Below, in pieces: positions 19,942-28,999 of a stretch of 64,000 nt of DNA (positions are counted from its first letter, which is position 1; every line of letters begins with the position of its first letter). The position numbers were made by a program, and so were the translations under genes. A model generated the notes under the pieces. That model was given only the letters and a program-made list of their open reading frames with translations, had not been told where the DNA came from and searched no databases. Origin of the DNA: Enterobacteriaceae bacterium RIT693 (lineage in GTDB: Bacteria > Pseudomonadota > Gammaproteobacteria > Enterobacterales > Enterobacteriaceae); contig WJYK01000009.1 of NCBI GenBank assembly GCA_009668225.1, forward strand, positions 124,001 through 188,000. The letters run 5' to 3'.

Positions 19942-21420
19942 TTAAGCGTTGGACCAACTTTGAATGGAGTCTGTGTTATCCAAATCGCCGTGCAGTACCT
20001 GATACGATTTCTTTAAAATGACATCAGTATGCTGCGTTAACTCCCTGAAGATCCCCTTGTTTAATGCCTCATAGCGCTTAGCGTTGCTTTCAACGGGCAT
20101 AAACACGTCTTTGACCCGCACCATGCTTCCAACAGCCGCTTCGTAGCTCGGGTACAACCCTAGCCCAACGGCGGTATTGATGGCTGCCCCCAGGCTGGCG
20201 CAGCCGTTGATGGCGTTACGCCTGACCGGCAGGTTGAATACGTCGGCAAAGATTTGCATAAACAGGTCGCTGTTGGAGCCGCCGCCGGTGATGATCACGT
20301 GTTTGGCAAAGTGGTCCATCTCATTGCACATATTGTCGTAATTGTTTTTCAGCGTCAGCGCGATGCTTTCAAGGATTGAGCGGTAAATCCACGCGTAGTC
20401 CATGCTGGAATCAAAGCCAATCATGATCCCACGTTTGAACGGTTCCCAGGGGTTGGTCAGCCAGTCCAGAACGGTCATCAGGCCATTGCAGCCCGGCGGC
20501 ACCAGAGCAGCTTTCTTATTCAGCAGCCCTTCCGGCGAGAGGTTTTGCGCTTTCGCGTCCTGAATCAGCGACTCGCCCAGCATGTCCCGCAGCCAGCTCA
20601 CCGTCCACATCCCCTTACGAATGCCGTAACCTTCATACAGCAGCGTTTCCGGAATGGACGACATAATTGGCCAGTAGGCCGTCGGCGCTTTTGGCAGCGC
20701 TTTGCCGTTCATCATCAGCGCGATATAGGTGCCGAGGGAAATCACCGCTGTCTCGTCATCCAGCAGCCCGGCACCCAGCGCCTCCACCGGTTTATCGCTG
20801 GTGGTACAAACGACCGGTAACCCAGCCGGGAACCCCGTTGCCTGAGCGGCTTTCTGCGTGAGTTGACCGATGACCGTGCCCGGCATCTGAACATCAAACA
20901 GCATGGTGCGCGGAATATTAAATTTCTTCAGCACGTCGTCATCGTCGCTCCACGACCACGTTTTGTAATCCACAGGCCACTGGCCAAAATAGTTGGCGAT
21001 ATTGTCTTTGAACTCCCCGGTTAAGCGGTGCGACAAATACCCCGAGAATGATGTGACCCAGGCGACATCAGGGTTAGTGTGCTCGTAAGGCCGGGTGACG
21101 CGAGCATCCTGCCAGCTGATCAGCGGCTCAGCGGGGGTGCCATCGGCTTTTAACAACGCGCGGCAGCAGCGGATAGAACCAAGACCAATCCCGACGATGG
21201 CGTCCTTGTTTCCCGTGAAATTGCTCATCAAATCCTGACCGGCGCGGCACAGCGAGTCCCACAGATCGTCGTCGGGGTGTTCGGCGGTATCTGCGTCCGG
21301 CGTGTGCATCGGCTGGAGCTGCCCCTTGCCTTCGCAGACGATATTGCCTGCCAGATCGTACATAACGACTTTTGTACTCTGGCTGCCACCATCAATCCCA
21401 ATGATGTATTTCTTCGACAT
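19942..21420 (-). CDS. ygcE: YgcE, FGGY-family carbohydrate kinase of unknown substrate
   Basis: Sugar/polyol kinase of 492 aa, the same length as E. coli YgcE. The ATP-binding phosphate-1 loop is IGIDGGSQSTKVVMYDL, the substrate region contains GIGLGSIRCCRALLKADG, and the C-terminal domain has HVIITGGGSNSDLFMQIFADV. FGGY kinases include glycerol, xylulose and gluconate kinases. The substrate here is not known, though the presence of a GlpP-like regulator in the cluster makes a three-carbon substrate worth testing. It starts 26 bp after the yqcE stop, so the two form an operon controlled from the yqcE leader. Confidence 0.93.
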   Translation of the reverse strand: MSKKYIIGIDGGSQSTKVVMYDLAGNIVCEGKGQLQPMHTPDADTAEHPDDDLWDSLCRAGQDLMSNFTGNKDAIVGIGLGSIRCCRALLKADGTPAEPLISWQDARVTRPYEHTNPDVAWVTSFSGYLSHRLTGEFKDNIANYFGQWPVDYKTWSWSDDDDVLKKFNIPRTMLFDVQMPGTVIGQLTQKAAQATGFPAGLPVVCTTSDKPVEALGAGLLDDETAVISLGTYIALMMNGKALPKAPTAYWPIMSSIPETLLYEGYGIRKGMWTVSWLRDMLGESLIQDAKAQNLSPEGLLNKKAALVPPGCNGLMTVLDWLTNPWEPFKRGIMIGFDSSMDYAWIYRSILESIALTLKNNYDNMCNEMDHFAKHVIITGGGSNSDLFMQIFADVFNLPVRRNAINGCASLGAAINTAVGLGLYPSYEAAVGSMVRVKDVFMPVESNAKRYEALNKGIFRELTQHTDVILKKSYQVLHGDLDNTDSIQSWSNA

Positions 21421-21446: not shown

Positions 21447-22745
21447 TCACTCGCCCGTTGCGGCCAGCGATGCCAATTTTTCCTGTGCCACGTCGGCTGC
21501 GTGAATTTTGCGGATCAGCAAAAAGGCAAACACGATGACCATGCACAGCGCGGCGAATCCCATCAGCCACATGTTGCGGTAGGCTTCCTCAGCCGGAAGG
21601 GTGTCCTGCCAGTGGCCGACCACCGGGTAAACGAACACGTCCGGCAGGAAGCCTATGACCGAACAGATACCCACGGTTGTGCCCATAATGTAGGGCGGCG
21701 TTCTGGCTTCGCCGGGGCAGGCCCAGTACAGCCCGCGCGAGGCGTAGCAGGTGAAACCCAGCAGCAGAATCAGGCTAATACCCATGGCGACGGACTGAGG
21801 GTTTGAGTTTGTCGCCAGTAGCGCAACCAGCGCCACGGCTCCGACAATAGAGAGCAGCTGCACAACGCGAGTCGGCGACTTGATTCGGCTGTAGGTGGTA
21901 ATGATGCCGCCCAGCGGGCCGCAAATGGCGCGGAAGATTTTATTTATCACGATGCCCATATAGCTGGCGGCCACCAGCGACATGCCGTACATCTCCGTCA
22001 GGTAGTTAGTTGAGTAGCTCAGAATCGCATAGATAGTGTAGACCCCGAAGATAACCATGCTGCAATACCAGGTGGTGCTGATGCGTAAAACGGAAAGAAT
22101 ATCTTTAAGCTGGAAGGCCGGTTTTTTTGCCTCCTGAGTACCTTCTGTGCGGCCGGTATACCCGTCGCTGACGAAGAACCAGCACAGCACGCCGAGCGCG
22201 ATATAAACGCCGCTGTAAATCAGAATGACGGCTTTAAGGCTGTTAGCATCTTCCGGGGCGAAACGCGAGAACACCCACATAGTAAAGACCGCCAGCGCCA
22301 TCACCCCAACGCCCCGCAGGCCTTCCATCCAGCCCATGATTTTCCCCTGCTCGCTGTGATCGCCCAGCAGGGAAGCGGCTTTAATTGAAACCGACCACAG
22401 CATCAGAATCGTGGTGACGGCGAAGGCGATCTGGATGACTATCATGACCCATAGCGGCGGGTAGAAAGCCATGACGATACCCAGAAGGCCGGTGGCAATC
22501 ATGGCCAGCGTCATCATTAAGCGGTGAGAAAATTTATCGGCAATGATCCCGCTGGGTGCATAAAGGATAATTGCGGTTATTCCGAACGTACTCATAATTA
22601 AGCCTATTTCGGTATTGCTAAATCCCATGAATTTTGCCATTGGGATTTGGTAAATATACCTTAAATAAGCAAGGTCAAAACTTACGCCACCACTGATACT
22701 TATTATTGCCAGCGTTAGCCAGCGACGAAAATTTGAATCACGCAT
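21447..22745 (-). CDS. yqcE: YqcE, MFS transporter
   Basis: Inner-membrane major-facilitator transporter of 432 aa with about 12 hydrophobic helices. The loop after helix 2 reads GIIADKFSHRLMM, a typical MFS signature. The pattern WYCSMVIFGVYTIYAILSYS and GLYWACPGEARTPPYIMG closely follows E. coli YqcE. The substrate is unknown. It is the first gene of a two-gene operon with ygcE and is divergent from ygcW; its 5' leader carries a terminator and a conserved block shared with the ygcW leader (see those entries). Confidence 0.92.
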   Translation of the reverse strand: MRDSNFRRWLTLAIISISGGVSFDLAYLRYIYQIPMAKFMGFSNTEIGLIMSTFGITAIILYAPSGIIADKFSHRLMMTLAMIATGLLGIVMAFYPPLWVMIVIQIAFAVTTILMLWSVSIKAASLLGDHSEQGKIMGWMEGLRGVGVMALAVFTMWVFSRFAPEDANSLKAVILIYSGVYIALGVLCWFFVSDGYTGRTEGTQEAKKPAFQLKDILSVLRISTTWYCSMVIFGVYTIYAILSYSTNYLTEMYGMSLVAASYMGIVINKIFRAICGPLGGIITTYSRIKSPTRVVQLLSIVGAVALVALLATNSNPQSVAMGISLILLLGFTCYASRGLYWACPGEARTPPYIMGTTVGICSVIGFLPDVFVYPVVGHWQDTLPAEEAYRNMWLMGFAALCMVIVFAFLLIRKIHAADVAQEKLASLAATGE

Positions 22746-22778: not shown

Positions 22779-22831
22779 AAAAAAAAGAGAAAAGCAACCA
22801 ATCCCCTGTGGGGGCTGATTACTTTTCTCAT
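22779..22831 (-). terminator. Leader terminator ahead of yqcE
   Basis: On the minus strand GAGAAAAG pairs with CTTTTCTC (8 bp), extended inward by TAA / TTG and an inner CCCC/GGGG hairpin, followed by eight T residues. It lies 33 bp before the yqcE start, so it must be bypassed for yqcE-ygcE expression. It is the twin of the hairpin at 23014-23066. Confidence 0.85.
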
Positions 22832-22843
22832 GGGCTCTAGTAA
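22819..22843 (-). promoter_or_regulatory. Conserved leader block (candidate antiterminator) of yqcE
   Basis: A 25-nt block starting TTACTAGAG and ending ATGAGAAAAGTAA, identical at 23 of 25 positions to the block at 23002-23026 on the other strand. TTACT can pair with the terminal AGTAA, which would take up part of the 5' arm of the terminator at 22779-22831. It begins about 5 nt after the predicted transcription start. Confidence 0.7.
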
Positions 22844-22854
22844 TTGCGGAGATT

Positions 22855-22895
22855 ATTATCATGGGAAGCGGTTTTTTAGTGTGAGAAATATCACG
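22855..22895 (-). promoter_or_regulatory. CRP site and promoter of yqcE-ygcE
   Basis: TGTGA-N6-TCACG at 22880-22895 matches the CRP consensus at 9 of 10 core positions. On the minus strand GATAAT (22855-22860) would be the -10 box, giving a start near 22848. The CRP centre then lies about 40 bp upstream of the start, close to the class II position. Confidence 0.7.
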
Positions 22896-22948
22896 CTATT
22901 GGTTTTCATGGTGAATGATATAGCGTTAAAGCCTTTTCATTATTGAGT

Positions 22949-22989
22949 TGTGATATTGATCACATAACATGACCAGCCGCTGTGATACT
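22949..22989 (+). promoter_or_regulatory. CRP site and promoter of ygcW operon
   Basis: TGTGA-TATTGA-TCACA at 22949-22964 is a perfect CRP core. GATACT at 22984-22989, preceded by TGT, would be the -10 box and give a start near 22996. The centre of the CRP site is then about 40 bp upstream, mirroring the yqcE side. Confidence 0.78.
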
Positions 22990-23001
22990 TATTTTAGCCA
23001 G

Positions 23002-23026
23002 TTACTAGAGACGATGAGAAAAGTAA
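23002..23026 (+). promoter_or_regulatory. Conserved leader block (candidate antiterminator) of ygcW
   Basis: Begins TTACTAGAG and ends ATGAGAAAAGTAA; matches 22819-22843 on the opposite strand at 23 of 25 positions. TTACT (23002-23006) can pair with AGTAA (23022-23026), competing with the terminator whose 5' arm starts at 23014. It begins about 6 nt after the predicted transcription start. Confidence 0.72.
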
Positions 23027-23066
23027 CTTCCCTTTCGGGGGGAGCTTGCTTTTCTCATTTTTTTTT
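23014..23066 (+). terminator. Leader terminator ahead of ygcW
   Basis: ATGAGAAAAG (23014-23023) pairs perfectly with CTTTTCTCAT (23049-23058), continued inward by TAA/TTG and a CTTCCC/GGGGAG stem, and is followed by nine T residues (23058-23066). Only 27 bp separate it from the ygcW start, so it is an attenuator, not the end of another gene. Confidence 0.9.
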
Positions 23067-23093: not shown

Positions 23094-23879
23094 ATGTCGC
23101 TCAGCGCACTCAACGAATTCTCACTGGACTTCTTCTCGCTAAAAGGGAAGACGGCTATCGTCACCGGCGGCAACAGCGGGCTGGGGCAGGCGTTTGCTAT
23201 GGCGCTGGCGAAAGCCGGGGCGAATGTGTTTATTCCCACGGTGGTGGAAGAGAAAGGCGAAACGCGTCAACTTATTGAACAACAAGGCGTAAAAGTGGCG
23301 TTTATGACCGTTGATATTACCGAAAAAGGCGCACCTGCACAGGTCATTGCCCAGTGCCTTGAAACTTTCGGCTCGGTCGATATCCTGGTCAATAATGCCG
23401 GGATTTGTAAGCTCAACAAGGTGCTGGACTTTGGCCGCGCCGACTGGGATCCGATGATCAATATCAACCTGACCGCCGCCTTTGAATTAAGCCACGAAGC
23501 GGCAAAAGTGATGATTCCTCAAAAGCACGGGAAAATCATTAATATCTGTTCATTATTTTCTTATCTTGGCGGCCAGTGGTCTCCGGCTTATTCCGCGACA
23601 AAACACGCACTGGCTGGCTTAACGAAAGCCTATTGTGATGAATTAGGTCAATATAATATTCAAGTGAACGGTATCGCGCCGGGTTATTATGCCACCGATA
23701 TTACTACTGAAACCCGTAAAAACCCCGAAACCAATAAGCGCGTGCTTGACCATATTCCAGCCAACCGCTGGGGTGAAACTCAGGATCTCATGGGGGCAAT
23801 GGTTTATTTATCCAGCCGCGCTTCGGATTATGTGAATGGCCATTTATTAGTGGTTGATGGTGGTTATTTAGTCAGGTAA
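23094..23879 (+). CDS. ygcW: YgcW, short-chain dehydrogenase/reductase
   Basis: NAD(P)-dependent SDR oxidoreductase of 261 aa, as in E. coli. The Rossmann motif is TGGNSGLGQAFAMALAKAG, followed by NNAGIC, the catalytic Ser region ICSLFSYLGG, YSATK, and the family's IAPGYYATD. The substrate is unknown. ATG 23094 (MSLSALNEFSLDFFSLKGK) lies behind TAAGGAG, 27 bp after the leader terminator; a longer frame from 23046 would start inside the terminator stem. It is the first gene of ygcW-ygcU-ygcS-ygcR-ygcQ. Confidence 0.94.
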   Translation: MSLSALNEFSLDFFSLKGKTAIVTGGNSGLGQAFAMALAKAGANVFIPTVVEEKGETRQLIEQQGVKVAFMTVDITEKGAPAQVIAQCLETFGSVDILVNNAGICKLNKVLDFGRADWDPMININLTAAFELSHEAAKVMIPQKHGKIINICSLFSYLGGQWSPAYSATKHALAGLTKAYCDELGQYNIQVNGIAPGYYATDITTETRKNPETNKRVLDHIPANRWGETQDLMGAMVYLSSRASDYVNGHLLVVDGGYLVR

Positions 23880-23949: not shown

Positions 23950-25404
23950 ATGTCTTTATCTCGCGAAGCAATTGTGGATCAATTAAAAGAAATCGTTGGC
24001 CCACAGCAGGTTATTACCGATGAGAAAGTATTGCAGAAAAACAGTATCGACCGGTTCAGAAAATATGCGGATATTCATGGCGTGTACACTCAGCCGCTGC
24101 CGGCCGCGGTAGTGAAACTGCAGAGCGCTGAGCAAGTCTCCAGCGTGCTGGCGTTTCTGAACAGCAACCGCATCACCTGTATCCCGCGCACCGGTGCGTC
24201 GGCAACGGAAGGCGGCCTCGAAACCGTGGTGAAAAACACCGTGGTGCTGGACGGCTCCGGGCTGAACAAAATTATCGATATCGATATTGAAAACATGCAG
24301 GCGACCGCCCAATGCGGCGTTCCGCTGGAAGTGCTGGAAGATGCGCTGCGCGCAAAGGGTTATACCACCGGCCACTCTCCGCAATCCAAGCCGCTGGCGC
24401 AAATGGGGGGCCTCGTCGCAACCCGCAGCATCGGCCAGTTCTCAACGCTTTATGGCGCAATTGAAGACATGGTGGTTGGCCTGGAAGCCGTCTTCCCTGA
24501 CGGCAGCATCACGCGCATCAAAAATGTACCGCGCCGCGCCGCTGGCCCGGATATCCGCCATGTGATTATCGGTAACGAAGGGGCGCTCTGCTACATCACC
24601 GAAGTGACGGTGAAAATCTTCAAATACACGCCGGAAAACAACCTGTTCTACGGCTACATCCTCGACAACATGAAAATCGGCTTCAACATCCTGCGTGAAG
24701 TGATGGTTGAGGGTTACCGTCCATCGATTGCCCGCCTGTATGACGCCGAAGATGGCACCCAGCACTTTACCCATTTTGCCGACGGTAAATGCGTGCTGAT
24801 CTTTATGGCGGAGGGTTCTAAACGGCTGGCTGAGGCGACCGGAGCAGGGATTGAAGAGGTTGTGTCCCGCTACCCGGAATGCAAAAAAGTGGACAGCAAG
24901 CTTATCGAAACCTGGTTTAATAACCTGAACTGGGGGCCAGATAAAGTCGCCGCCGAACGCGTTCAGATTATGAAAACCGGCAATATGGGCTTTACCACTG
25001 AAGTCTCCGGAAGCTGGAGCTGCATTAATGAGATTTACCACAATGTGATCGAGCGCATTCGCAACGAATTTCCTCATGCAGGCGACATCACTATGCTTGG
25101 CGGTCACTCCTCCCACAGTTACATCAACGGCACCAACATGTACTTCGTCTATGACTACAACGTGGTGGACTGCAAACCGGAAGAGGAAATCGACAAGTAC
25201 CACAACCCGCTGAATAAAATCATCGTTGAAGAGACGATTCGCCTCGGCGGCTCGATGGTGCACCACCACGGTATCGGTAAACACCGCGTGCACTGGTCAA
25301 AGCTGGAGCACGGCAGCGCATGGCCAATCATGCAGGGCCTGAAAGATCGGTACGATCCGAACGGCATCATGAATACCGGCACGATTTGGCCGATGGAAAA
25401 GTAA
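23950..25404 (+). CDS. ygcU: YgcU, FAD-linked oxidase
   Basis: Flavoprotein of the vanillyl-alcohol-oxidase/PCMH family, 484 aa, equal to E. coli YgcU. The FAD-binding domain shows CIPRTGASATEGG, QCGVPLEVLEDALRAKG, and MGGLVATRSIGQFSTLYGAIEDMV; the C-terminal FAD_oxidase_C domain ends with SMVHHHGIGKHRVHWSKLEHG, similar to alkylglycerone-phosphate-synthase-like members. It probably oxidises a hydroxy-acid or related substrate and passes electrons to the YgcR/YgcQ flavoprotein encoded downstream. ATG 23950 follows AGGAAGGAGTTGTC. A hairpin terminator lies after its stop. Confidence 0.93.
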   Translation: MSLSREAIVDQLKEIVGPQQVITDEKVLQKNSIDRFRKYADIHGVYTQPLPAAVVKLQSAEQVSSVLAFLNSNRITCIPRTGASATEGGLETVVKNTVVLDGSGLNKIIDIDIENMQATAQCGVPLEVLEDALRAKGYTTGHSPQSKPLAQMGGLVATRSIGQFSTLYGAIEDMVVGLEAVFPDGSITRIKNVPRRAAGPDIRHVIIGNEGALCYITEVTVKIFKYTPENNLFYGYILDNMKIGFNILREVMVEGYRPSIARLYDAEDGTQHFTHFADGKCVLIFMAEGSKRLAEATGAGIEEVVSRYPECKKVDSKLIETWFNNLNWGPDKVAAERVQIMKTGNMGFTTEVSGSWSCINEIYHNVIERIRNEFPHAGDITMLGGHSSHSYINGTNMYFVYDYNVVDCKPEEEIDKYHNPLNKIIVEETIRLGGSMVHHHGIGKHRVHWSKLEHGSAWPIMQGLKDRYDPNGIMNTGTIWPMEK

Positions 25405-25464: not shown

Positions 25465-26820
25465 ATGCACGCCGAACCGGTTCGTATGGATGACCTGCCG
25501 CTTAATCGCTTTCATTTACGCATCGCCGGGCTGACTTTCGGCGCCCACCTGACGGACGGCTACGTGCTGGGCGTGATTGGCTTTGCGCTGGTGATGATTA
25601 CGCCGCAAATGGGCCTGACGCCGCTACAGGAAGGGTTGGTAGGCGGTTCGGCGCTGTTTGGGCTGTTTCTTGGCAGCCTGGTGCTGGGCTGGATCTCCGA
25701 TCATATTGGCCGGCAGAAAATCTTTAACTTCAGCTTTGTGCTCATCACGCTGGCCTCTTTTTTACAGTTTTTCGTGAGCAACGTGGAACAGCTGATCCTG
25801 CTACGGGTGCTGATCGGCATCGGGCTTGGCGGCGATTATTCCGTAGGCCATACCATGCTGGCCGAATTTGCCCCACGCAAACATCGCGGCGTGCTGCTAG
25901 GCGCGTTCAGCGTGGTCTGGACGCTGGGCTATGTGCTGGCAAGCCTGATTGGCCATTTAATGGTGGACAGCGGGTCGGATGCCTGGCGCTGGCTGCTGGC
26001 TTCCGCCGCGTTTCCCGCGCTGTTAATCACGTTCTTACGCTGGGGTACTCCGGAGTCACCCCGCTGGCTGATGCGCCAGGGGCGAGTGTCCGAGGCCCAC
26101 CAGATTGTGCGTCGCTGCTTCGGCGAACATGTTGTTATCAGCGATGAAATTGCGGTGCCGACCTCCCGCCATCTCCGCACGTTGTTTTCCGAGCAATACT
26201 GGCGGCGCACCGCGTTTAATAGCCTGTTCTTTGTTTGCCTGGTTATCCCCTGGTTTGCGATTTACACCTGGCTGCCGTCTATTACCGGGCTGCTGGGGAT
26301 GCAGGATGGCCTGACGGCCAGTTTGTTGCTGAATATGGTGCTGGTGATAGGGGCGATTGTGGGCCTTGTGCTGACCCACCGCTGTTCACGTCGCGGCTTC
26401 TTGATCGGCGGCTTTCTGGTGCTGTTCTTAAGCCTCACCGCGCTGGCGCTGGTGCCGGAACAACACAGCACGCTTATCCTGCTGCTGTTCTTTATTTTTA
26501 CTCTGACGATTTCAGCTGTCAGCAATCTGGTGGGGGTGTTGCCCGCTGAGAGTTTCCCGACCGATATCCGCTCGCTGGGCGTCGGTTTTGCGACGTCAAT
26601 GAGCCGCTTCGGCTCGGCCATCAGCACCGGCCTGCTGCCGGTGGCGCTGGTCTCCTTCGGCGTGCAGAACACCATGCTGCTGCTGAGTGCGGTTCTGATG
26701 CTGGGGCTGCTGGTTTCGGTCTTTTGGGCACCGGAAACGCGAAACATGAGCCTCGTTGCCGCCTCCGGGAATAAGGAACAGGCGCCGGGAGTGAACCATG
26801 AACATTCTGTTAGCCTTTAA
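25465..26820 (+). CDS. ygcS: YgcS, MFS transporter
   Basis: Inner-membrane transporter of 451 aa with about 12 helices, of the sugar-porter/metabolite:H+ type. GWISDHIGRQKIF after helix 2, GIGLGGDYSVGHTMLAEFAPR in helix 4-5 and the late PAESFPTDIRSLGVGFATSMSR are hallmarks of the SP/AAHS group. Substrate unknown; it probably takes up the compound oxidised by the cluster. It ends inside the start of ygcR (23-bp overlap), so the two are coupled. Confidence 0.93.
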   Translation: MHAEPVRMDDLPLNRFHLRIAGLTFGAHLTDGYVLGVIGFALVMITPQMGLTPLQEGLVGGSALFGLFLGSLVLGWISDHIGRQKIFNFSFVLITLASFLQFFVSNVEQLILLRVLIGIGLGGDYSVGHTMLAEFAPRKHRGVLLGAFSVVWTLGYVLASLIGHLMVDSGSDAWRWLLASAAFPALLITFLRWGTPESPRWLMRQGRVSEAHQIVRRCFGEHVVISDEIAVPTSRHLRTLFSEQYWRRTAFNSLFFVCLVIPWFAIYTWLPSITGLLGMQDGLTASLLLNMVLVIGAIVGLVLTHRCSRRGFLIGGFLVLFLSLTALALVPEQHSTLILLLFFIFTLTISAVSNLVGVLPAESFPTDIRSLGVGFATSMSRFGSAISTGLLPVALVSFGVQNTMLLLSAVLMLGLLVSVFWAPETRNMSLVAASGNKEQAPGVNHEHSVSL

Positions 26821-27577
26821 GGCCGAACCAGACCTCTCCATGCTGGCGGAAAAAGACTGGCTGGCCGCGAAACATCAAGGGCTGGACACCTCTGTCACTC
26901 GTCCTTGCCTGGGCGAAGATGAGCAGGCTGCCGCCGAGATGCTGCTGCGACAGGAAGAAGGCCTGAAACTTACCGCGCTAAGCATAGGCAGCGAGCGTGC
27001 GGATAGCTTTCTGCGCCAGTTTAAGGCGCTGGGGTTCCAGCGGGTGGTACGGTTGAGGCTGGCGGGCGAGCTGACTTTTGCACCGGCATCGGTTGCCGCC
27101 TTATTGGCGGCCTGGCAGTGGCAAAATCCTCAATCGCTGGTGGTACTTGGGTCGCGTAGCGCCGAAGGCAACAGCGGCCAGACGGGCTTCTACCTTGCCG
27201 AAAAGCTAGGCTGGCTGTGCTTCAGTCAGGTCTATGATTTTACGGTGAACCCTGAGCTGCAGCAGGTTGAGCTGAAACAGCGATGTGCTACCGGAAAACG
27301 CCGCCTTACCGTGCGGCTGCCTGCGGTATTGATAATTGAAAGCCGGGGAGAATATTGCCTGAGAACGCCGGGCCTGCGGCAAAAACTGGCGGTAAAGGCC
27401 TCGGACGTTGAGGTTTTGCCTGTGGAAACGTTGGGTGCCGAGGTAGCCATGCCTGCGCTGGTCGAACTGGATAACCCTCAGCGACAGCGCGGCGGCTTAA
27501 TTATTCAGGGAAGCGATGCGGGTGAGAAGGCCCGTAGCCTTTACCGCGACTGGCTACGTAAAAGGATGCAGCCATGA
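26798..27577 (+). CDS. ygcR: YgcR, electron transfer flavoprotein beta subunit
   Basis: Beta (AMP-binding) subunit of an electron transfer flavoprotein, 259 aa, equal to E. coli YgcR. The beginning MNILLAFKAEPDLSML and LSIGSERADSFLRQFKALG follow the FixA/EtfB pattern. It pairs with YgcQ to carry electrons from a flavin dehydrogenase (YgcU is the likely donor) to YgcN/YgcO. It overlaps ygcS by 23 bp and ygcQ by 4 bp (ATGA). Confidence 0.9.
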   Translation: MNILLAFKAEPDLSMLAEKDWLAAKHQGLDTSVTRPCLGEDEQAAAEMLLRQEEGLKLTALSIGSERADSFLRQFKALGFQRVVRLRLAGELTFAPASVAALLAAWQWQNPQSLVVLGSRSAEGNSGQTGFYLAEKLGWLCFSQVYDFTVNPELQQVELKQRCATGKRRLTVRLPAVLIIESRGEYCLRTPGLRQKLAVKASDVEVLPVETLGAEVAMPALVELDNPQRQRGGLIIQGSDAGEKARSLYRDWLRKRMQP

Positions 27578-28440
27578 AAATTGCCCTGATCCTGCCCGAA
27601 TCCCGAAAAGCTGCCGTGCTGAACGCGTTCGGGAATTTTATTTCGTGTAGCGAGACTGAAAAAGTCCAGCTTGAAGGCTGGCTGCTGCCGGAGACTGAAT
27701 ACAGCGAGCCGCTGCTGGATGCGTTATGCGCGCACTATGCTCAGTCCCCTGCAAATGTTTTGCTGTTTCCTTCAGGCTGGCAGGGCGCGGAGCTGGCAAC
27801 CCGGCTGGCGTGCCGCCTGAAGGGGGAAGCCTGGAGTGCCGTCAGTGGGGTAAATATTACCCAAAAAACGGTGCGCAAAAATGCCTGCGGCGGCGCGCTG
27901 GTGGCTACTCTCCGGCTGCAAAATAAACCCTGGTGCCTGAGCGTTGCGGCCTCGCCGGGCGCAGAGAGCTGGCAGCCAGAGATAGAATATTCGCAGATTC
28001 CCGTAGCAGAACAGAAGCCTGCCTGGCTGGTTGAGTGTGCGTCCATTGCTGAGGAAAGTGCGTCCGGGCTGGCTGAAGCCAGGCTTGTGCTGGCGGTCGG
28101 GCGAGGAGTAGGCAGCCAGCAGGCGATGGAACAGGTTGAAGCCTGCGCCAGCGCGCTGGGGATGGAAACCGGCGCGAGCCGGGAAGCGGTGATGCACGCC
28201 TGGTGCAGCATGGACAAGCTGTTAGGGATGTCCGGTACTCAGGTTGCCGCCGACGTTTGTATTGCCGCAGGTATTTCCGGCGCACCTGCCTTTATCAGCG
28301 GCATTGCCCACAGCCGGTTTATCGTCGCTATTAACAACGACCCACAGGCGGCAATTTTTCGCCATGCCGACGTGGGGATTGTGGACGACCTGCTGCCGGT
28401 GTTAGCCGAGCTGCAAAACTGCGTCAGGGAAGATATTTAG
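27574..28440 (+). CDS. ygcQ: YgcQ, electron transfer flavoprotein alpha subunit
   Basis: Alpha (FAD-binding) subunit, 288 aa (E. coli 286). The C-terminal FAD domain has LAVGRGVGSQQAMEQVEACA, GASREAVMHAW, and ISGAPAFISGIAHSRFIVAINNDPQAAIF, as in FixB/EtfA. It overlaps ygcR by 4 bp. Its 3' end overlaps the convergent ygcP by 17 bp, so the two transcripts are antisense at their ends. Confidence 0.92.
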   Translation: MKIALILPESRKAAVLNAFGNFISCSETEKVQLEGWLLPETEYSEPLLDALCAHYAQSPANVLLFPSGWQGAELATRLACRLKGEAWSAVSGVNITQKTVRKNACGGALVATLRLQNKPWCLSVAASPGAESWQPEIEYSQIPVAEQKPAWLVECASIAEESASGLAEARLVLAVGRGVGSQQAMEQVEACASALGMETGASREAVMHAWCSMDKLLGMSGTQVAADVCIAAGISGAPAFISGIAHSRFIVAINNDPQAAIFRHADVGIVDDLLPVLAELQNCVREDI

Positions 28441-28999
28441 CCAGCTGCCAGACGCCGGTATTGGTGGTTGAGATGGCCAGCGCGCCGGCGTTCAGGGCGT
28501 TGTTGGCATCCTCCGCGTCACACACCAGGCCGCCTGCTATCACCGGCAGGTCGATTTTCTCCGTCACCCACTTCATCACCTTCGGCATGCAGCCGGGCAG
28601 GATTTCAATGCAGTCCGGGTTTGACTGCGCGATCTGCTTATCGATGTTGTGATAAGAGATAGAGTCGACGATAAACAGCCGGTGAATGGCAAAGAACCCC
28701 TGCGCCCTGGCCGCTTTCACCATCGGTGCCTTGGTGCTGATCACGCCGTCGGCCTGGGTCACCAGCTTCAGGAAGTTAATCACAATTTCTTTATTCGACG
28801 TGCCTTCCAGTAAATCGACGTGCACCAGCGCGTATTTGTTCGCTTTTTTAATCTGCTGCACGATGCCGGTAATCGTGCAGATATTGCCGTACAACACGGA
28901 AATAACCTGGCAGTCGGACTCCAGCGCCAGCTGCAGGCTCTGGTTATCTTTTACCGCTGCAATCAGCGGGTGTTGCTTGAGTAGGGACATCAGGGACAC
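28424..28999 (-). CDS. ygcP: YgcP, GlpP-type antiterminator-like protein
   Basis: Member of the glycerol-3-phosphate responsive antiterminator family (GlpP of Bacillus, an RNA-binding TIM-barrel-like protein). 191 aa with start GTG 28999, which sits 8 nt after GGAG and gives the E. coli YgcP length; ATG 28990 is the alternative. Family motifs: KDNQSLQLALESDCQVISVL, HVDLLEGTSNKE, ADGVISTKAPMVKAA, CIEILPGCMPKV, VIAGGLVCDAEDANNALNAG, ALAISTTNTGVW. It follows ygcN-ygcO in their operon. The only terminator-bearing leaders in the cluster are those of yqcE and ygcW, its likely targets (inference). Confidence 0.88.
   Translation of the reverse strand: MSLMSLLKQHPLIAAVKDNQSLQLALESDCQVISVLYGNICTITGIVQQIKKANKYALVHVDLLEGTSNKEIVINFLKLVTQADGVISTKAPMVKAARAQGFFAIHRLFIVDSISYHNIDKQIAQSNPDCIEILPGCMPKVMKWVTEKIDLPVIAGGLVCDAEDANNALNAGALAISTTNTGVWQLAKYLP

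Follow-up and report, generated by a model that had tools for sequence, protein, structure and literature searches.

A candidate YgcP-dependent antitermination switch in the leaders of the divergent yqcE and ygcW operons of Enterobacteriaceae

Results and Discussion

Comparative analysis of a 64,000-nt stretch of DNA from Enterobacteriaceae bacterium RIT693 (hereafter, the window) suggests a two-step switch over each of two divergent transcripts, yqcE-ygcE and ygcW-ygcU-ygcS-ygcR-ygcQ, in which CRP would start transcription and YgcP, a GlpP-family protein, would control antitermination in both leaders; we consider this model as a whole very likely. As judged from aligned sequences and computed energies, both leaders have two mutually exclusive, covarying folds, and, in the genomes compared, the RNA element that they share is tied to YgcP in three phyla. 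The genes concerned are as follows.

19942..21420, minus strand: ygcE, FGGY kinase, predicted to be the second gene of the yqcE transcript
21447..22745, minus strand: yqcE, MFS transporter, putatively controlled gene
23094..23879, plus strand: ygcW, short-chain dehydrogenase, putatively controlled gene
23950..25404, plus strand: ygcU, FAD-linked oxidase, downstream of ygcW
25465..28440, plus strand: ygcS (transporter) and ygcR and ygcQ (electron-transfer flavoprotein subunits), downstream of ygcW and assumed to be on one transcript
28424..28999, minus strand: ygcP, GlpP-family protein (G3P_antiterm, PF04309; 215.5 bits), proposed trans-acting antiterminator

The yqcE and ygcW leaders share a block that can enter either of two helices

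Both leaders start with a 25-nt block that is the same at 23 of 25 positions, as a preliminary description of this DNA had claimed; the chance expectation for such a pair was 0.00 (64-kb window, 100 shuffles), and the two leader copies are the only matches in the 5.04-Mb genome at ≤3 mismatches. The second half of the block also forms the 5′ arm of an intrinsic terminator, so that each leader contains two overlapping structures.

22779..22829, minus strand: intrinsic terminator of the yqcE leader; T-run 22786-22779; fold z -4.30
22818..22844, minus strand: putative antiterminator hairpin of the yqcE leader, ATTACT-AGAG-CCCAT-GAGAAA-AGTAAT; contains the block at 22819-22843 (TTACTAGAGCCCATGAGAAAAGTAA); assigned from sequence, covariation and occurrence with YgcP
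23001..23027, plus strand: putative antiterminator hairpin of the ygcW leader, GTTACT-AGAG-ACGAT-GAGAAA-AGTAAC; contains the block at 23002-23026 (TTACTAGAGACGATGAGAAAAGTAA); assigned from sequence, helix covariation and occurrence with YgcP
23014..23066, plus strand: intrinsic terminator of the ygcW leader, with a stem that shares the 3′ half of the hairpin; T-run 23058-23066; fold z -4.77

The outer stem of the ygcW terminator (ATGAGAAAAG/CTTTTCTCAT) has 10 bp and is followed by 9 T, while that of the yqcE terminator (GAGAAAAG/CTTTTCTC) has 8 bp and is followed by 8 T; the full stems are longer than these values because the inner part also pairs. The start codons lie 27 nt (ygcW) and 33 nt (yqcE) past the end of the T-run. 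The dual use of the block, stems of 8 to 10 bp, and T-runs of 8 to 9 at 27-33 nt before the start codons had all been described beforehand and were recovered here, while self-pairing of the block, previously given as TTACT with AGTAA, proved to be longer, with 6 bp on each side (GTTACT/AGTAAC for ygcW and ATTACT/AGTAAT for yqcE). Both leaders were folded, as had been proposed as a check; the ygcW leader (-29.1 kcal/mol) and the yqcE leader (-26.9 kcal/mol) each folded more stably than 200 of 200 shuffled sequences.

Both leaders also exist in E. coli K-12, with hairpins at NC_000913.3 from 2900506 (plus strand) and at 2900335-2900361 (minus strand); the region from the leader to ygcW is approximately 71% identical to E. 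coli by blastn, and megablast returned no match for it. No third copy of the block was found before ygcN-ygcO-ygcP (≤3 mismatches), suggesting that YgcP is not itself made through the antitermination switch of yqcE and ygcW. A known Rfam family was considered for the leaders and rejected, as none reached its gathering threshold in window positions 12000-34000; at E values up to 1, only five matches were seen, all far under their gathering scores. E. coli RNA-switch candidates with ygcW as downstream operon appear in the available text of PMC4448311; they lie 3.5 and 4.2 kb from ygcW and are not these leaders.

Compensatory changes support both competing helices

Leaders were collected around YgcP relatives and around the block, giving 89 places (overlapping loci and the window being counted separately) that reduce to 63 non-identical sequences; these come from Enterobacterales and from two genomes of Bacillales. 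This set excludes five loci from genomes without YgcP (L049, L050, L061, L065, and L069), among which only L061 passed the arm test. Covariation was assessed on an alignment of 53 of the 63 leaders; the other 10, which carry a 3-nt insert after the left arm, were left out because MAFFT misplaced them in an earlier alignment, and the leaders of K-12, G183, G269, Streptomyces, and Enterococcus were found later and stand outside it. The consensus hairpin, RTTRCY / NGAG-N4-5-GAGRAA / RGYRRY, can form from the first ~27 nt of the leader.

Within the 53-leader alignment, pairing held in 98.4% of the cells of the antiterminator helix; none of 500 shuffles attained its 22 double-change cells or its covariation score of 0.267, and 8 of 500 attained its number of pairs with a double change. 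The terminator helix was paired in 98.5% of cells and presented 13 double-change cells in 5 pairs, with 0 of 500 shuffles as high. Further pair types did not exceed the shuffles, 500 of 500 (antiterminator) and 105 of 500 (terminator) of which reached the observed value. All of these changes are to be read as non-independent events, because the alignment rows are related. Compensatory changes touch all three strands of the competing helices; for example, column 24, whose alternative partners in the two folds are columns 8 and 58, shows a U-A-U to C-G-C change in 8 rows, and columns 6, 26, and 56 change jointly in the minus-strand leader of L048. RNAalifold run without an input structure recovered the terminator. 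All six arm pairs are intact in 58 of the 63 leaders; the sixth pair is an uncompensated C-A in four plus-strand leaders (L009, L010, L011, and L012), and the first pair is A-G in the minus-strand leader of L057. Free variation of the block, the outcome named in the preliminary description as evidence against it, was not seen, and the covariation that it had proposed to look for is present in both helices. Its view that the block is held by selection rather than by recent duplication agrees with changes that follow RNA pairing and with inner loops that differ in sequence between the ygcW and yqcE leaders.

Computed energies, which were obtained for all 63 leaders including the 10 with inserts, averaged -27.5 kcal/mol for the terminator and -11.7 kcal/mol for the forced antiterminator, making the terminator more stable than the weak hairpin by about 16 kcal/mol on average. 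When the 3′ arm of the terminator was removed computationally, the antiterminator formed in 62 of 63 leaders.

In the ten leaders, the insert reads GAA, GAC, or GAT and separates the left arm from the NGAG core (L013, L015, L016, L017, L020, L021, and L068 on the minus strand; L022, L047, and L066 on the plus strand), indicating that the spacing between these two parts is flexible.

CRP-like sites precede the enterobacterial leaders, mostly at similar distances

A CRP-like site was defined as a TGTGA-N6-TCACA-like sequence agreeing at ≥8 of 10 positions and lying ≤92 nt upstream; approximately 5% of shuffles reach 8. Two such sites, with predicted positions, stand between the leaders of the window.

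22880..22895, minus strand: CRP-like site for yqcE (CGTGATATTTCTCACA), centred 43.5 nt before the left arm
22949..22964, plus strand: CRP-like site for ygcW (TGTGATATTGATCACA), centred 44.5 nt before the left arm

All 61 enterobacterial leaders presented a site of this kind, centred 42.5-45.5 nt before the left arm in 59 of them, a spacing that, for a class II CRP promoter, predicts an RNA start 1-4 nt before the hairpin; none was found upstream of the two Bacillales leaders. The intergenic region ygcW<>yqcE is among the predicted CRP targets given in the available text of PMC3105977 (also PMC1794230). Promoter hexamers printed in PMC3946193 were rejected as support for this start site, since in K-12 some 135 nt separate the yqcE pair from the hairpin downstream of it; a transcript started there would still contain the leader. 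The ygcW pair printed in the same text was not found at its printed spacing in the K-12 stretch examined.

A leader peptide causing attenuation was also considered; the predicted start leaves no room for a peptide before the hairpin, and this candidate was dropped.

The element occurs in genomes that encode YgcP

YgcP matches PF04309 with 215.5 bits (cut-off 27), placing it in the G3P_antiterm family. Two relatives have structures in the PDB, 3kts (glycerol uptake operon antiterminator) and 1vkf (antiterminator-related protein), and the K-12 protein is annotated as a 'putative anti-terminator regulatory protein'. The closest proteins in the species collection, 98% identical, are from Cedecea neteri and two Enterobacter-labelled genomes, and 5063 of 5426 E. 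coli genomes have a ygcP-like match. In a tree of 93 proteins, a branch with 99% support separates YgcP (30 enterobacterial and 4 Bacillales rows) from 59 other GlpP-family rows; the tree is a quick one and carries the tool's warning about long branches. Four Enterobacteriaceae loci (L042, L043, L045, and L046, from G074, G027, G002, and G061) encode a second, distant member of the GlpP family that shares 27-29% identity with YgcP.

Among 149 Enterobacteriaceae genomes, 22 had some match to YgcP, 19 of them at ≥65% identity and three distant or partial. The block (≤3 mismatches) was found in 19/19 genomes with YgcP versus 5/130 without (Fisher 8.8e-20), the five latter matches each having 3 mismatches; a reversed control pattern matched 2/149 genomes. 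Among 197 genomes of the order sample, the two with YgcP both had the block, and 6/195 others matched at 2-3 mismatches (reversed control, 11/197). Three of 101 Bacillales genomes encode a protein of the YgcP clade, at 54-55% identity and with scores of ~220 bits against 136.5 for the next best, and all three contain the element without mismatch, versus 0/98 of the others (Fisher 6e-6), although 91 of these 98 have a GlpP-family match over the cut-off.

Each of the 19 family genomes that encode a YgcP orthologue has both divergent leaders, as do 17 of 19 named enterobacterial loci. One of the two exceptions is Serratia microhaemolytica (L014), in which ygcP adjoins a methionine synthase gene and the element lies elsewhere in the genome. 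In the other, Enterobacterales bacterium AwEntero (L019), YgcP is present and the element was not found genome-wide at ≤3 mismatches with a pattern that would miss the insert-bearing form; its contig stops 3 kb past ygcP. A further genome (G148) has YgcP on contig C9 and the element on contig C13, suggesting that regulator and target go together without adjoining.

The association extends to Gram-positive bacteria. At two Bacillales loci, the element stands directly before a ygcW orthologue (68% identical in L139, 69% in L140), followed by kinase and FAD-oxidase genes (ygcE 53% and ygcU 67% in L139), with ygcP divergent; at a third (L141), the gene after the element encodes a BCCT-family transporter, and ygcW (67%), kinase, and oxidase genes follow. 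In Salsuginibacillus halophilus, the element is found before a glycine-betaine-type ABC operon divergent from ygcP-ygcW-ygcU-ygcE. A Streptomyces clavuligerus plasmid has the order ygcP, element, ygcW (66%), ygcU, ygcE, and its arm change GAGAACAG has a matching change, CTGTTCTC, in the terminator. The element of Enterococcus raffinosus and E. gilvus stands before an MFS transporter gene (product 32% and 30% identical to YqcE, respectively) beside ygcP and ygcW; the E. gilvus cluster adds genes for an osmoprotectant ABC transporter, an FAD oxidase, and electron-transfer flavoproteins. Two Enterococcus plasmids also show a second element-like stretch between ygcP and ygcW, followed by a terminator (L150 8540-8665 and L145 9550-9740; GCTAAGAGGAGAGAGAAAAGC in gilvus).

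Proposed mechanism and its relation to GlpP antitermination

We propose that CRP initiates transcription from a class II site, with the RNA beginning just before the hairpin. The 3′ half of the hairpin is the 5′ arm of the terminator, and sequence and computed energies indicate that the weak hairpin and the stronger terminator compete. By default, the terminator would form and transcription would end before the start codon; ligand-bound YgcP would grip the hairpin through its NGAG...GAG core and block the terminator, so that both operons would be read. Binding by YgcP and read-through are suggested by the covariation, by the presence of protein and element in the same genomes, and by what GlpP is known to do. 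Given the precedent of GlpP and glycerol-3-phosphate, a phosphorylated metabolite is the probable ligand of YgcP; it may be the compound made by the YgcE kinase.

According to the available text of PMC9604022 and PMC7430163, GlpP acts by antitermination at glpD, glpFK, and glpT(Q) of Bacillus subtilis. YgcP belongs to the same family (PF04309), and its putative targets likewise have a leader hairpin, right after the predicted promoter, that overlaps an intrinsic terminator before the controlled gene, as found by sequence and computation; the RNA and protein features examined thus agree with a switch that would work like that of GlpP. However, the YgcP system would control yqcE-ygcE and ygcW-ygcU and the genes that follow rather than glycerol uptake or oxidation genes, YgcP forms a separate protein clade, its leaders have GTTAC(T/C)/(A/G)GTAAC arms and, in Enterobacterales, CRP-like sites, and the ygcP gene lies outside the controlled transcripts.

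GlpP-linked leaders of Bacillales other than B. subtilis also share the RGAG-N3-6-GAG core between pairing arms. This core, placed before a terminator, gave 11 matches in 30 loci, 2 of them YgcP-type, versus 0-2 for each of ten control words; an earlier list of 12 hits had one place twice (L076/L077) and two members unlike leaders (L084 and L090). Examples are the leader of a Salsuginibacillus glpD-like gene (GGTC-GGAG-TCGAT-GAGA-GACC) and the glpF and glpD leaders of Cytobacillus spongiae (cores AGAGATTAAGAG and AGAGACCACGAG). In GlpP-linked Bacillales leaders, a box AAGTTAA, absent from YgcP leaders, occurs shortly before the left arm (e.g., L149 4612 and 7091); the list of 29 places with this box and the core was spotted by eye, without a chance control.

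Alternative explanations

The preliminary description had proposed protein-controlled antitermination with both BglG/SacY and GlpP as models. BglG, SacY, and LicT at their RAT sites resemble the system described here in general logic, a protein-held hairpin overlapping a terminator, and differ in protein family, RNA consensus, and PTS control. A PTS-controlled CAT-domain protein could bind the hairpin in the manner of a RAT site; CAT_RBD has two matches in the genome, and GTNACT is part of the RAT consensus too. However, this consensus has no match in the window at ≤3 mismatches, the CAT_RBD genes are on contigs C1 and C50, unlinked to the target on contig C51, and the element follows YgcP in 19/19 and 3/3 genomes. 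We therefore reject the BglG/SacY half of the earlier analogy, which has a remote probability, and retain the GlpP half: antitermination by a GlpP-type protein at both leaders is supported by a conserved block, covariation of both helices, and an element that follows a PF04309 protein encoded in the same cluster, which the preliminary description had left unnamed. A small molecule might instead bind the hairpin directly while YgcP acts elsewhere; catabolic operon leaders with two alternative folds would suit such a riboswitch, and the lack of an Rfam family at the leaders would allow for a novel class. We find this highly improbable, as ~27 nt folded around a short conserved core would make a very small metabolite aptamer, and the link with a GlpP-family gene across three phyla, together with the same core in GlpP-linked leaders, points to a protein.

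YgcP could also act mainly on mRNA stability, shielding a 5′ hairpin from decay rather than preventing termination. GlpP also stabilises glpD mRNA, as stated in the available part of a review (PMC7430163), and the predicted RNA start places the hairpin at the 5′ end. Conservation of the terminator helix and T-run, and a terminator arm that changes along with the hairpin, make this very unlikely as the main effect; stabilisation may be a side role of YgcP. Two near-identical copies close to two promoters might, finally, suggest that a transcription factor binds the block as DNA, or that the two leaders are a recent functionless duplication. This is scarcely credible, given compensatory and G-U changes that track RNA pairing in two alternative helices, inner loops that differ between the two leaders, and an element that stays before a terminator in three phyla.

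Implications for YgcP and the orphan pathway

A search of the literature, mostly open papers without their supplements, found no description of YgcP targets or of the yqcE and ygcW leaders, as the preliminary description had also stated for a switch in this cluster. YgcP, in K-12 a 'putative anti-terminator', thus gains two candidate targets with a covarying RNA element, and comparative evidence suggests that it would decide between hairpin and transcription stop for two divergent gene sets of gut bacteria. If this is true, GlpP-type control reaches beyond glycerol genes to another pathway and extends to Gram-negatives and Actinomycetota, with the hairpin core as a candidate recognition motif for the GlpP family. 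We lean towards a broader reading, in which GlpP-family proteins generally recognise a single, previously undescribed RNA motif (a hairpin built on an RGAG-N3-6-GAG core, with clade-specific arms), the YgcP clade of Pseudomonadota, Bacillota, and Actinomycetota, with its portable ygcW-ygcU-ygcE cassette, senses a phosphorylated metabolite other than glycerol-3-phosphate, and E. coli K-12 would thus govern an orphan catabolic pathway by a protein-dependent antitermination switch that has gone unrecognised. The orphan cluster, present also in K-12, becomes testable, and its inducer could be screened for with a leader reporter.

Several Gram-positive ygcP-ygcW clusters include BCCT (betaine/carnitine/choline-type) or osmoprotectant-type ABC transporters (L139 14108-15673, L141 6775-8424, L142 9740-13066, and L150 9495-12778); these betaine-type transporters may provide a lead to a quaternary-amine substrate of the orphan pathway.
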